A stretch of 48,444 bases of DNA from Gammaproteobacteria bacterium (GTDB taxonomy: Bacteria > Pseudomonadota > Gammaproteobacteria > S012-40), in assembly GCA_029884425.1 (NCBI GenBank), contig JAOUHV010000016.1, forward strand, positions 1-48,444, given 5' to 3'. Made by a program: the position numbers and the translations under genes. The notes under the pieces are model-generated. The model made no database searches. It was not told the origin of the DNA and saw only the letters and a list, made by a program, of their open reading frames with translations. Shown piece after piece: positions 16,341 through 26,643 of this stretch; position 1 is the first letter of the stretch; each line of letters begins with the position of its first letter.

Positions 16341-16658
16341 ATGGACGAGCAACACGAGCCTGAACAGGTCGAGTCAAAGCAAGTTAAAAAAATGGTCATC
16401 ACCTGCGAGTCCAACGTGGACATCAGCGTAGCCAAAGATTTTTACGAATTGCTAATGCAGGCATTAGCAGAAAGACAGCTGGTAGAAATTGACGCATCAC
16501 AAGTGGAGCGAGTGGATGGCTCCATTCTGCAACTGTTATATGCCTTTTGGAAAGAGGCGGGCCAAATTGGACTGCCCGTTAGTTTCAAGGCGGCATCAAC
16601 ATCGTTTGTAACTTCAGCCAGATTATTGGGTATGGATAAGTCGATGAACTTATCCTGA
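16341..16658 (+). CDS. STAS-domain protein, anti-sigma-antagonist-like (operon 2)
   Basis: This 105-aa protein has about 15 polar N-terminal residues and then a STAS domain (VEIDASQVERVDGSILQLLYAF). Unlike the operon-1 STAS protein it keeps a serine in the position corresponding to the SpoIIAA phosphoserine (DGSI). The start has a good site (CGGAGG, ending 7 bases upstream). It is the first gene of operon 2, 70 bp before cheY. No partner kinase or anti-sigma factor gene is visible in the window, so its role in this pathway is unknown. Confidence 0.85.
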   Translation: MDEQHEPEQVESKQVKKMVITCESNVDISVAKDFYELLMQALAERQLVEIDASQVERVDGSILQLLYAFWKEAGQIGLPVSFKAASTSFVTSARLLGMDKSMNLS

Positions 16659-16728: not shown

Positions 16729-17091
16729 ATGGCAAAGATTCTTGCTGTAGATGACTCAGCTTCCATGAGACAAATGGTGGCTTTCACCCTCAAAGGAGCT
16801 GGGCATGAAGTGGTCGAAGCAGGCGATGGTGTGCAGGCGTTGGCCGTGGCCAAAAATGGAAAAGTTGATCTGGTGCTAACCGACGTCAATATGCCCAACA
16901 TGGATGGCATCACCCTGATCAAAGAATTGCGTGCGTTGCCCGCATACAAATTTGTACCGATCTTGACGCTGACCACGGAATCCGGCCAGGACAAAAAAAT
17001 GGAAGGAAAAACGGCAGGTGCGACCGGATGGATAGTTAAGCCGTTCAGTCCAGACCAATTATTGGCGACGATAAAAAAAGTGCTGGGGTAA
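16729..17091 (+). CDS. cheY: CheY-type response regulator (operon 2)
   Basis: This 120-aa single receiver domain has D8/D9, phospho-acceptor D52 (TDVNMPNMDG), T82 and K104 (IVKPF). It is very similar to the operon-1 CheY. The start follows AGGAGATGGAGA. It ends 6 bp before cheA, its expected phosphodonor. The gene order STAS-cheY-cheA-cheW resembles the beginning of the Pseudomonas aeruginosa che2 cluster (cheY2-cheA2), in which the output is not simple flagellar control. Confidence 0.93.
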   Translation: MAKILAVDDSASMRQMVAFTLKGAGHEVVEAGDGVQALAVAKNGKVDLVLTDVNMPNMDGITLIKELRALPAYKFVPILTLTTESGQDKKMEGKTAGATGWIVKPFSPDQLLATIKKVLG

Positions 17092-19314: not shown

Positions 19315-19800
19315 ATGAATGCGGTATCACAGGATATAGAGTTAGAACTGCAAGGTGACTCCAATGGGGAGCAATATCTAACCTTCATTATGGCCAATGA
19401 AGAATACGGCGTAGATATTTTGCGGGTTCAGGAAATTCGTGGTTGGGATCATGTGACACCTATTCCGAATACACCATCATACATCAAGGGTGTAATAAAT
19501 TTGCGCGGTTCTATCGTTCCCATTATCGAACTGCGCTCTCGCTTTGGTATTGGCAGTCAGGAATATGGTCCAACTACGGTTGTTATCGTGCTTCGTGTAA
19601 TCACGGATGCTGGTGAGCGAATTATGGGAATAGTGGTTGATGCTGTTTCCGATGTGTACAACATTTCAGCCGAAGACATGAAGGATCCACCTGACTTTGG
19701 ATCGATGGTCAGTATTGATTATGTGAAAGGGTTGACTTCAGTGGATGAGAAAATGGTCATTATCCTGGATATTGATCGCTTGATGAATTGCACAGGCTAA
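19315..19800 (+). CDS. cheW: CheW-type coupling protein (operon 2)
   Basis: This 161-aa protein is a single CheW domain (QYLTFIMANEEYGVDILRVQEIRGW, then GVINLRGSIVPIIELRSRFG), typical in length and motifs. The start follows GGGAGAG. It lies between cheA and parA with spacers of 15 and 25 bp. It should link the cytoplasmic receptor to the operon-2 CheA. It is less like the two operon-1 CheW copies than those are in overall layout, having a shorter N-terminus. Confidence 0.94.
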   Translation: MNAVSQDIELELQGDSNGEQYLTFIMANEEYGVDILRVQEIRGWDHVTPIPNTPSYIKGVINLRGSIVPIIELRSRFGIGSQEYGPTTVVIVLRVITDAGERIMGIVVDAVSDVYNISAEDMKDPPDFGSMVSIDYVKGLTSVDEKMVIILDIDRLMNCTG

Positions 19801-19825: not shown

Positions 19826-20614
19826 ATGAGCAGAGTGATCGCAGTTATGAATCAAAAGGGCGGGGTTGGTAAGACAACCACCTCGTTGAATCTTGCTCAT
19901 GGTTTGGCAAAGCTTGGCAAACGTGTACTGCTGCTGGATATTGATCCTCAAGCACATTTGAGTGCCAGCTTTGGTATGCATGGTCTGGGTATGAGCGGCA
20001 TGGATGCAGTCATGCTGGATGATGAAAAACTCGATGATGTGTGCATGAATGTTCGCGACGGATTGAGTTTGGTGCCTGCTGGCGATCGTCTTGGAGAATT
20101 GGAGTTCGTCAGTGCCGGTGGAGCTTCACGCGGATATCGTCTTGGTCGTGCGATTATGGCCAGTGAACAATCCTGGGATTTTATTATTATAGACTGTCCA
20201 CCTTCGACCGGGCTGTTGGGAATGAATTGTTTGTTGGCCGCTGAGGAATTGCTGATTCCGGTATCCAGTGATTATCTAGCGCTGCATGGTTTGTCTCGAC
20301 TGGTCAGTATTATAAATAACATTGAAGAGCGCTTGAATCGGAATACGCGCAAATGGCTGGTGGTGACGCGCTTCCAGCAGCGCCGTCGATTGGCTCGCAA
20401 TGTTCTTGAAAAATTATTGGAGTATTTCCCTGGTCAAGTATTGAAAACTGTCATTCGTGAAAGTGTTTCGTTGGCGGAAAGCCCAGGGTTTGGAAAAACA
20501 ATATTCGATTATCGAAAATCAAGTCACGGGGCAGAGGATTATTTGTCTCTGGCAAGAAATATCATTGATGAGCAGGTGATGCATGATCACAAAGTCGAAC
20601 ACGAAACGGCATGA
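19826..20614 (+). CDS. ParA-family ATPase in a chemosensory operon (array-positioning type)
   Basis: This 262-aa protein has a deviant Walker A motif (NQKGGVGKTTTSLNLA), Walker A' LLLDIDPQAHLS and Walker B IIIDCPPSTG. There is no N-terminal HTH, so it is the short ParA type that binds DNA non-specifically. Known chemotaxis relatives are ParC of Vibrio and PpfA of Rhodobacter sphaeroides, which place receptor arrays in the cell. It sits between cheW and a soluble receptor, which favours the PpfA-like role of partitioning a cytoplasmic array. Its last 32 bases overlap a small ORF that has its own ribosome site. No ParB gene is present. Confidence 0.92.
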   Translation: MSRVIAVMNQKGGVGKTTTSLNLAHGLAKLGKRVLLLDIDPQAHLSASFGMHGLGMSGMDAVMLDDEKLDDVCMNVRDGLSLVPAGDRLGELEFVSAGGASRGYRLGRAIMASEQSWDFIIIDCPPSTGLLGMNCLLAAEELLIPVSSDYLALHGLSRLVSIINNIEERLNRNTRKWLVVTRFQQRRRLARNVLEKLLEYFPGQVLKTVIRESVSLAESPGFGKTIFDYRKSSHGAEDYLSLARNIIDEQVMHDHKVEHETA

Positions 20615-20735
20615 AGTGACTGCAGCGCCGACAAACAAAGAGCTGTTGCTGGATGCTCGCATAAAGGGATCGAAAAAGAAACGATCAATGGAAATATTGC
20701 AGCGAGTTTTTGCAGATATGGCCTGGTTTGGCTAG
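20583..20735 (+). CDS. Small basic protein (50 aa) between parA and the soluble receptor; candidate ParA partner
   Basis: The ORF starts ATG ATC ACA AAG and ends TTT GGC TAG. AGGTG (20574-20578) lies 4 bases before the start. It overlaps the 3' end of parA by 32 bp and ends 19 bp before the receptor gene. The product is rich in Lys/Arg (MITKSNTKRHEV, then KGSKKKRSMEIL) and ends RVFADMAWFG. The start MITKSN resembles the receptor start MTKKSN. The tail AWFG and the KKKRSM-EIL stretch resemble the receptor's AWMAG and [11 protein letters not shown]. Basic N-termini that stimulate ParA ATPases are known for ParB proteins and for TlpT of Rhodobacter. I do not recognise the family. It could be a ParA activator, a relic of a duplicated receptor N-terminus, or chance. 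Confidence 0.6.
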   Translation: MITKSNTKRHEVTAAPTNKELLLDARIKGSKKKRSMEILQRVFADMAWFG

Positions 20736-20754: not shown

Positions 20755-23688
20755 ATGACAAAAAAATCAAACTCGGCAATTGGCTATGACCCGTTGGCGT
20801 GGATGGCGGGCGACGATGCAGAGCCGGCAAGCAAGCCAAAAAAATCTGCATCCGGTAAAGGAAAAGGTAACAGTATGAATATTGATATTTTGCGCAGTAG
20901 CTTTGCAGCACTGGCCCCTCAGGGGGAGGAATTGACAAGGCGGTTTTATGCGGAATTATTTGAGCGTTTTCCCCAGGTTCGTCCAATGTTTACGGGGGAC
21001 GTCAAAGACCAGGAGCGTAAATTACTGGCTGCGCTGCAGACAGTTATTGCGTCATTGGATAAGCCGGCGGCACTAAAGAAAACGTTGGCAGAACTTGGTC
21101 GGCGGCACCAGAACTATGGTGCAGTTGCCGGGCATTATCAAGCAGTAGCTGAGACCCTACTTGATGTGATGGCTGATTTGGCAGGGTCACTTTGGACAAA
21201 TGAAGTGGCGTCAGCCTGGAAGCAAGCGCTGACCGTCGTCGCACAAGCGATGCTAGATGCGTATGAGGAGCAAGAGGACAAGAGTATGGTGGCTAACAGA
21301 AAATCGATGGAAAGTGAATTGAGTAATGATATGCACGATGAACTGGTGAGAATGAAGTCGGCGGTCAATGGTGCCATGACGGCGATCATGATGGTGGATC
21401 GTGACTTCAATATCACTTATGTGAATCAATCCACGGTTGAGTTGTTGAAGCCGCATGAGGATATATTGCGTAAAGCCTTTCCAGGATTTAGTGCCGAGAA
21501 TTTGATGGGGAAAAACATTGATGTTTTCCACAAAAATCCCCGTCGCCAGCGTCAGTTGCTTTCTAATCCAGCGTCATTGCCTTACTCGACAGATATTGAA
21601 ATTGGACCGCTGAAGTTCCGTCTCAACGTCACAGCCATCATGGATAATAGTGGAAATTACATTGGAAACACGCTGGAGTGGTCTGATGTTACCTCTGTGC
21701 GTCAAAAAGAAGTTGAAGTCGCGCGTTTGCAGTCTGCGGTAGACAGTGCTACTACAAACCTGATGATGTGTGATTCCAATCTGAATATCACCTACGCCAA
21801 TCCTGCGGTAGTGGCGATGTTACGCGCACGTCAAACCGAGTTGCGCAAAGTATGGCCAAGTTTGAATGTGGATAATCTGATTGGCCAAAATATTGACCAG
21901 TTCCACAAAAATCCCGCGCATCAGCGCTCATTGTTGTCCGATAAAAATCGTTTGCCTGCCAGAGCTGAAATCAAGGTGGGTGATTTGGAATTTGAAGTCA
22001 ACGCCACCTTTATTGCCGGGCCAAACGGTGAGTACATGGGCAACATGGTGGAATGGAAAGACTTAACCGATTCCAATAAGCAAAAACGCGAAGTTGCGCG
22101 CTTGCAATCTGCTGTTGATGGCGCTGCATCCAATCTGATGATTTGTGATGCCGATCTGAGAATAACCTATGTTAATCCCTCAGTGGTAAAAATGCTGTCC
22201 AAACGTGAAACAGAATTGCGTAAGGTCTGGCCATCGCTAGATACACGTAATTTGATCGGTCAGAACATTGACCAGTTCCACAGAAATCCAGCGCATCAGC
22301 GCAGTCTATTGGCAGACAGATCGCGTTTGCCTGCCAAAGCAGAAATTACCGTGGGCGATCTTGAGTTTGAAGTCAATGCAACCATGATCACCGGCCCCAA
22401 TGGTGAGTACATGGGGAACATGGTGGAATGGAAAGATATCACCGAGCAGAAAGATGCCGAGCGTCAGATTGAACGTCTGATCGAAGCTGCATCTGCCGGT
22501 AATCTGGATCAACGTATTAACTCGGATAATTACAGCGGGTTTATCCGTAACCTGGGTGAAGGTGTTAACCAGTTGATTGATGCGGTGGTCAAGCCGATTC
22601 GCGAAGGAACCCGAGTTGTTAAAGCGATGTCTGAGGGTGATCTGCGTGAAAACATGACCGGTGAGTTTGAAGGTGAATTTGCCGTGTTACGCGATGCAAT
22701 CAATCTGACTGTCGATAATCTGCGTCGCATGGTTGGTCAGATCAAGAGTTCAACGGTCAATATTTCAACCGCATCATCTGAGATTGCTCAGGGTAACGCG
22801 GATTTGAGTCAGCGTACCGAAGAACAGGCATCGTCGCTGGAAGAAACTGCTTCAAGTATGGAAGAGTTGACAGCCACCGTACGGCAGAATGCTGACAATG
22901 CTCGCCAAGCCAATCAGTTGGCGTCCGGTGCGAGTGAGCAGGCGCAGAAAGGTGGCGATGTCGTGCAGCGTGCTGTGACTGCAATGAGTGAGATCAATAC
23001 CAGTAGCAAGAAGATTGCTGACATTATCGGTGTAATCGACGAGATCGCTTTCCAAACCAACTTGCTGGCTTTGAACGCTGCGGTAGAAGCTGCGCGTGCC
23101 GGTGAGCAAGGTCGTGGTTTTGCGGTTGTAGCGGGCGAAGTTCGTAATCTGGCACAACGAAGCGCTGCGGCTGCCAAAGAAATCAAGACACTGATTCAGG
23201 ACAGCGTGGAAAAAGTAGAGGATGGAACCAAACTGGTGGATCAGTCCGGGGCAACGCTACAGGAAATCGTGTCTGCGGTTAAACGCGTCAGTGACATTAT
23301 TGCCGAAATTGCGTCTGCCAGCCAGGAACAGTCTGCCGGTATTGAACAGGTCAATAAAGCCGTAACTCAAATGGACGAAGTTACCCAGCAGAACGCGGCG
23401 TTGGTTGAAGAAGCTGCAGCGGCGAGCGAATCCATGGATGAGCAAGCCAGATCACTGACCGACATGATGTCCTTCTTCAAGATAGACGAGGATGGCGAGA
23501 TTAGTATGGCGCCAGTGGCACCTCGTGCGGCAAGCAAGCCCGTAGCAGCAGCAAGACCTGCGACCAAGGCAGCAGCGCCCGCATCAGCTCGTCCAGCAGC
23601 CAGACCTGCGGCTGCAGCAGCGAAGCCTGCGACACGTCGCGCACCGCCAGCCTCGGCCGGTGGTGATGAAGAGTGGGAAGAGTTTTAA
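20755..23688 (+). CDS. Soluble globin + three Aer2-type PAS domains + HAMP-like + MCP signalling domain receptor
   Basis: This 977-aa receptor has no membrane segment. The order is: a lysine-rich N-terminus with YDPLAWM; a globin domain (about 41-172, proximal His likely H127 in [11 protein letters not shown]); PAS1 (about 200-315); PAS2 (325-440); PAS3 (450-565). Two HAMP-like segments (565-660) and the MCP domain (tip [24 protein letters not shown]) follow, then an Ala/Pro-rich tether ending EWEEF. Each PAS has FHxNP and a Trp in (E)WxD. These match the haem-ligand His234 and the O2-contacting Trp283 of Pseudomonas Aer2: H259/W309, H384/W434 and H509/W559. I infer an oxygen or other gas sensor with up to four haems. 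The start follows GGGAGGA. Confidence 0.93.
21727..22446 (+). repeat. Tandem PAS2/PAS3 coding repeat, period about 375 bp
   Basis: PAS2 and PAS3 of the soluble receptor are near copies with a 125-residue period: VARLQSAVD at residue 322 recurs at 447, and GQNIDQFH and [12 protein letters not shown] recur at the same offset. PAS1 (about 21352-21700) is a more distant third copy. This suggests recent internal duplication of the last two domains. Confidence 0.85.
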
Positions 23689-26301: not shown

Positions 26302-26643
26302 ATGAGTGAAGTGATCAATCAAGATACCATTGCGATGCTCAAGGATGTGCTGGGCAGTGGTTTTGGCGAAGTGGTGGATGCGTTTCTTGGCGATACACCT
26401 GTGCGCCTGCAAAAGGCACAGGTGTGTGCCGCCAATGGTGACTTGGCCGGGCTTGAGCGTGAGATTCACGCGGTCAAAGGCAGCAGTGGCAATGTCGGAG
26501 CTACGCTGGTCTGCCAGTTGGCAACGGCTATTGTGGATGGCTGTCGACAGCGAAGCTTAACCGCCCCCAACGAGGCCGTGATTCAACTGATTGCGGCGTT
26601 TGAACAGACTGCCCCCCTCCTTGACGCATTAAAATCACCGTAG
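26302..26643 (+). CDS. Stand-alone histidine phosphotransfer (Hpt) protein
   Basis: This 113-aa protein is a single Hpt helical bundle with phospho-acceptor H56 in the motif REIHAVKGSSGNVGA. It has no kinase domain, so it must receive phosphate from a receiver-containing protein. It follows cheB by 29 bp and is probably the last gene of operon 2, where it could exchange phosphate with CheY or CheB or drain it as a sink. The ribosome site is weak (AGGGA about 13 bases upstream). No hybrid kinase is present in the window. Confidence 0.85.
   Translation: MSEVINQDTIAMLKDVLGSGFGEVVDAFLGDTPVRLQKAQVCAANGDLAGLEREIHAVKGSSGNVGATLVCQLATAIVDGCRQRSLTAPNEAVIQLIAAFEQTAPLLDALKSP

Follow-up and report, generated by a model that had tools for sequence, protein, structure and literature searches.

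Results

A small gene between parA and a soluble chemoreceptor

The stretch of DNA that was analysed, hereafter called the window, comprises 48,444 nucleotides of a gammaproteobacterial genome (GenBank assembly GCA_029884425.1, contig JAOUHV010000016.1, positions 1 to 48,444 of the forward strand). It harbours an F7-like chemosensory operon with the gene order STAS (starting at 16341), cheY (16729), cheA (17098), cheW (19315), parA (19826), a small open reading frame (20583), a receptor gene (20755), cheR, cheD and cheB. The features that concern us here are the following:

16729..17091, + strand: F7-type cheY with Trp replacing E. coli Tyr 106 (from alignments; V. cholerae CheY4, 4h60/4hnr, is closest among solved structures); candidate partner of the small protein
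19315..19800, + strand: cheW (Pfam CheW), part of the same operon
19826..20614, + strand: gene of a parA-like ATPase of 262 residues (Pfam AAA_31, CbiA), sharing 32 nt with the small ORF
20574..20578, + strand: Shine-Dalgarno-like AGGTG, 4 nt before the ATG, as read from the sequence
20583..20735, + strand: small-protein gene with ATG start and TAG stop, encoding the 50 residues MITKSNTKRHEVTAAPTNKELLLDARIKGSKKKRSMEILQRVFADMAWFG
Codons 36-50 of the small ORF: conserved C-terminal helix (predicted), MEILQRVFADMAWFG, following a variable, basic N-terminus
20703..20735, + strand: tail RVFADMAWFG and stop, the conserved CheZ-tail-like segment (from column counts and comparison with CheZ)
20755..23688, + strand: gene of an Aer2-like soluble receptor of 977 residues (Pfam globin-PAS-PAS-PAS-HAMP-MCPsignal)
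20782..20805, + strand: N-terminal box G-Y-D-P-L-A-W of the receptor (about residues 10-17), assigned to ParA by its linkage to parA

An in-frame TGA is located two codons before the ATG at 20583, which is thus the only start that yields a long frame. This frame shares its first 32 nt with the end of parA and terminates 19 nt before the receptor ATG, so that the geometry described in a first-pass annotation of this DNA, including the AGGTG 4 nt upstream, is confirmed by the sequence. Most relatives of the ORF described below equally contain an upstream match to GGAG, GAGG, AGGA, AGGT, AAGG or GGGA. Neither Pfam nor NCBIfam contains a model that fits the 50-residue product or its family, and a search of PDB sequences with the family profile retrieved only two weak matches, both of which are variants of the GCN4 coiled coil. 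The AlphaFold model of the product contains a helix between residues 18 and 49, with a mean pLDDT of 64 overall and of about 82 over the last 10 residues, which makes a helix at the tail plausible while the remainder of the model is uncertain. The adjacent receptor scores 1012.7 bits against NF041847, below the cut-off of 1200, and ends with the sequence WEEF, which resembles a tether for CheR and CheB. A stand-alone protein with an Hpt domain is encoded right after cheB (26302-26643) and may join the STAS gene at 16341 in the output of the system.

A family of small proteins conserved at the C-terminus

When used as query, the 50-residue ORF found only itself at a significant E-value and a relative in genome G006 appeared merely as a weak match (E 0.4), for which reason we have resorted to synteny, using cheW as anchor in 369 gammaproteobacterial genomes and reading the gap before the receptor in 80 stretches downstream of this gene. 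A small ORF of one type occupies this gap in 29 of the 44 operons of the window's kind. The family comprises, with the window copy, a total of 42 members of 23-78 residues, encoded in gammaproteobacterial che operons on the 5' side of a chemoreceptor gene. The only part common to these proteins is the C-terminus, which nearly always reads [LIVM]-E-[EQ]-[IVL]-[LF]-[SA]-x-[MLI]-[AV]-W-[N/x]-G-stop, with the Trp present in 38, Ser or Ala at position -4 in 39 and Gly at position +2 in 36 of the 39 members that were counted; three members carry one extra residue before the stop. The N-terminus varies across the family and is nearly absent in the members of 23 residues.

A profile of the tail, compared with the 369 whole genomes, gave 30 matches with E < 0.002, all of them directly before a chemoreceptor gene and two (G301 and G315) outside the sequences from which the profile was made. 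After slight enlargement, the profile detected six further members in two orders, five of them located between cheW and the receptor and one behind cheW at the end of a contig, which brings the number of members found only after the profiles were built to eight. A position-score scan added three stand-alone members of 23 residues (in L014, L015 and L017). Fusions of the tail to another protein were not seen in the operons scanned as lacking the small ORF, and 349 genomes of the wider phylum contained, besides the window, only matches at chance level. Two short pre-receptor ORFs ending in LLAELARAG (L120:552-644 in G269 and L121:552-647 in G364) look like degenerate members that have lost the Trp. 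We found no description of such a small protein in the open-access literature, and the small ORF almost certainly belongs to an unannotated family of F7-type chemosensory operons that had not been described before.

The tail of these proteins is under purifying selection. The pooled, uncorrected pN/pS amounts to 0.20 for the last 14 codons compared to 0.62 for the rest, the N-terminal part of this comparison being ungapped and rough. The information per base is 0.78, 1.33 and 0.42 bits at codon positions 1, 2 and 3, synonymous sites vary freely and the three stop codons occur at roughly equal frequency. The low information at the third position, the usage of stop codons and the pN/pS of the tail thus show selection on the C-terminal peptide at the protein level. 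The proposal of the first-pass annotation that the ORF encodes a separate protein is in this way supported by 42 family members at an equivalent place and by the two comparisons it had suggested, conservation of the frame in related che operons, where relatives were found by cheW synteny and tail profiles, and the ratio of non-synonymous to synonymous change. A short frame that overlaps another gene could in principle have arisen by chance or, as the same annotation had considered, be left over from a duplication of the receptor 5' end. The comparative data refute both, as the 42 members are conserved, their conserved part is C-terminal and under purifying selection, and similarity to the receptor is not significant, which leaves either origin with a negligible probability. 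The resemblance to the receptor N-terminus that had been claimed is not significant (BLASTP E = 7.4) and does not fall at the positions that were named. Since the N-terminus of the ORF is variable, the pairs MITKSN/MTKKSN and KKKRSM/GKGNSM look like coincidence, and the C-terminal 'AW' is the only piece with a conserved counterpart in the receptor, in a motif (DPLAWM) of different genomic linkage.

The same data bear on the possibility that the ORF acts in cis, as a leader whose C-terminus would arrest the ribosome close to or at the stop codon and thereby control translation of the receptor. Such a role would agree with the location immediately upstream of the receptor gene, the restriction of conservation to the last 12 or so codons by the stop and the variable N-terminus. 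However, the geometry is not fixed: in L116 and L220 the ORF overlaps the receptor start, while in L221 and L224 the two are separated by about 200 nt and by 227 nt, respectively. Three members extend by one residue, and stop codon and synonymous sites are free to vary. In addition, conserved RNA structure was not found between the stop and the receptor start, and folding around the stop gives no signal (mean z 0.12). We thus regard a leader peptide as rather unlikely.

The small gene tracks the receptor and not parA

Among the 44 operons, 24 contain parA (that of G208 was found only in a longer stretch) and 20 do not. The small ORF is present in 13 of the former, being missing from 11, and in 16 of the latter. 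In G077, G208 and G311, the genes are arranged in the order cheW, small ORF, receptor, parA and STAS gene, which places the small ORF about 2.4-2.8 kb upstream of parA and still 5' of the receptor, indicating that it stays with the latter. In G315, where cheW has moved, it is found between parA and the receptor. Finally, in the divergent che operons of G301 and G121 (L221 and L224), it precedes a McpA-like transmembrane receptor at the operon head, and these operons have kept the tail and a W-type CheY whereas CheW, CheR and the receptor have diverged (with CheW 34% and CheR 33% identical in G301). The small gene thus tracks the receptor, not parA. As a separate observation, cheR of G287 extends over two adjacent frames (L235:6614-7476); the gene is either broken or was frameshifted during assembly.

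That the small ORF is so strictly linked to the receptor gene argues for a role as receptor-bound subunit or anchor, where the helix would bind the Aer2-like or McpA-like receptor and aid array assembly or membrane attachment. The gene lies directly 5' of the receptor in each instance, even where cheW or parA have moved and in a different type of operon, and such an anchor would address a known gap, as Aer2 contains no transmembrane segment and F7 arrays are nevertheless associated with the membrane, by a mode of attachment stated to be unexplained (PMC7534058; PMC7184735). Conversely, the receptors following the small ORF in L221 and L224 already contain apparent transmembrane segments, and several operons with globin receptors do not contain the ORF. 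The helix is acidic, with a mean net charge of -1.1 in the family, and only modestly amphipathic. A membrane-targeting helix was rejected on these grounds, since helices of this kind are basic, and the same property speaks against the anchor, which we consider a credible but unlikely explanation.

A sequence box linked to parA

The motif that does follow parA is a box of the sequence G-[FY]-D-P-L-A-W-M, which all 24 operons with parA contain and none of the 20 without. It takes the form D-P-L-[ASG]-W, usually after lysines and G-[FY], on the first larger gene product 3' of parA. This carrier is usually the receptor. In G130, G077, G208 and G311, however, the receptor gene lies before parA and its product does not contain the box, which is found instead on a STAS-domain protein (STAS proteins at L240:2006-2401, L230:4750-5298, L231:3156-3719 and L232:7278-7835). 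The identity of the carrier in G130 had led us to expect the same for the family of G077 and G311, as was then found in the stretches fetched. In G148 and apparently also in G355, the box resides on a globin-STAS protein (L239:9083-10024). In these operons, ParA may thus position a STAS output protein instead of the receptor. In two further operons (L130, L155), parA immediately precedes cheR and the stretch read contains no box. In G195, which has no parA (L233:3970-6672), the receptor has the degenerate sequence MNFDPLVSM at its N-terminus, suggestive of a box that decayed once parA had been lost.

The linkage supports the receptor N-terminus as putative contact of ParA, from which we infer binding. 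The first-pass annotation had assigned this role to both proteins, with the small protein as soluble ParA-binding peptide offering the same motif. While the part concerning the receptor has gained support, the part concerning the small protein has not, as the family occurs at least as often in operons that do not contain parA and strict linkage to parA is a property of the DPLAWM box. Despite the shared [LM]-A-W core and the overlap with parA in the window, a ParA-binding role of the small protein is thus improbable.

The F7 CheY and a tail resembling that of CheZ

Gammaproteobacterial CheZ proteins end in the sequence V-D-D-L-L-S-S-L-G-F, which we found in nearly all of the 29 representatives read, including that of the same genome, where a genuine CheZ gene is encoded elsewhere (G000:C33:13628-14245). 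If aligned with the family sequence L-E-E-I-F-S-S-M-A-W, both tails place hydrophobic residues at positions -9, -6, -5 and -2, acidic residues at -8 and -7, Ser at -4 and an aromatic residue at 0, and the C-terminal helix pattern of the family thus appears CheZ-like in character. In a position-score test, only 7 of 2,795 other C-termini scored as high as the CheZ tail or higher, and 4 of these are degenerate members or family tails contained in longer frames; the N-terminal peptide of E. coli FliM, another ligand of CheY, did not score. Since the 10-residue pattern was noticed only after the family consensus was known, this rank constitutes support and not proof, with bias lowered but not removed. 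We have rejected the assignment of the small protein as CheZ itself, as it does not match the CheZ domain (Pfam PF04344) and its 50 residues do not include the Q-D-x-[ST]-G-Q region of the helical bundle with the catalytic Gln.

The C-terminal tail of CheZ contacts the α4-β5-α5 face of CheY. CheZ and FliM share one common face of this protein (PMC3774744). The solved structures closest to the CheY of the window are those of V. cholerae CheY4 (4h60/4hnr). This protein contains a Trp in place of Tyr 106, FliM is not among its ligands, CheZ is expected not to be bound either, and it has no known target or partner (PMC3774744). A Trp at this position is found in the CheY of the window (16729-17091), of L221 (5173-5541) and of L224, and in every F7 copy read over this region. 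The F7 CheY is equally conserved in operons with and without the small ORF, although the group 'without' included L006, L014, L015 and L017, of which the latter three do have the ORF and L006 is cut by a contig end; with conservation this high in either case, there is no covariation in support of binding.

Discussion

The CheZ-like tail, in combination with a CheY of the tryptophan-containing CheY4 type and the retention of both in G301 and G121, makes docking to this CheY the leading explanation for the small protein, which we tentatively take to be, most likely, an independent docking peptide for the F7 CheY of the tryptophan type, similar to the tail of CheZ. As a free-standing CheZ tail without a phosphatase, it might constitute the first dedicated binding partner of a CheY of this type. 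According to such a mechanism, the small protein would be expressed with the che operon and made beside the receptor, independently of ParA. Its functional part would be the predicted C-terminal amphipathic helix L-E-E-I-F-S-x-M-A-W-N-G-COOH, while the variable N-terminal part is probably disordered and, as in the members of 23 residues, can be absent. Based on its residue pattern, the helix would dock on the α4-β5-α5 face of the operon's own CheY, as does the CheZ tail, and we speculate that CheY or CheY-P could thereby be sequestered, held at the array or handed on. The partitioning of the array by ParA would instead be the task of the DPLAWM box, carried by the product of the gene that follows parA. 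What argues against docking to CheY is the location of the gene, which adjoins the receptor and never cheY and which fits a receptor partner or a cis-acting element at least as well, together with the missing covariation of CheY, the FliM peptide that does not score and the late recognition of the CheZ pattern.

The role of F7 systems outside enterics, the target of their CheY and the membrane attachment of soluble receptors have been stated as open questions (PMC7184735, PMC7534058, PMC3774744). A conserved, unannotated peptide with a tail resembling a CheY ligand offers a concrete component of F7 operons to study in this respect. Likewise, the DPLAWM box provides a simple sequence marker for the protein that is carried by the ParA of a che operon, which is not always the receptor.

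The properties of the small ORF can be compared to three known systems. Nascent-chain leaders of the TnaC and SecM type combine a conserved C-terminus with a variable N-terminus and a location upstream of a gene. The small ORF is alike in all three respects but differs in its variable spacing, the absent RNA structure signal, its position inside an operon and its helix-like pattern. The peptides of adaptors that link cargo to ParA, such as the N-terminus of ParB or TlpT/PpfA in Rhodobacter, are resembled by the receptor box with its lysine-rich IGYDPLAWM sequence near a basic N-terminus and its tie to parA, whereas the small protein is not tied to parA and is conserved at its C-terminus. With the tail of CheZ, the small protein shares the pattern of hydrophobic, acidic, small and aromatic residues over 10 positions, the Ser at -4 and a predicted helix close to a free C-terminus, although with Trp in place of Phe, Ala or Val in place of Gly and two more residues, usually Asn-Gly, at the end. 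It differs from CheZ as a whole by the absence of the four-helix bundle and the catalytic phosphatase domain, and by a genetic linkage to the receptor in contrast to the flagellar cheY-cheZ pair.
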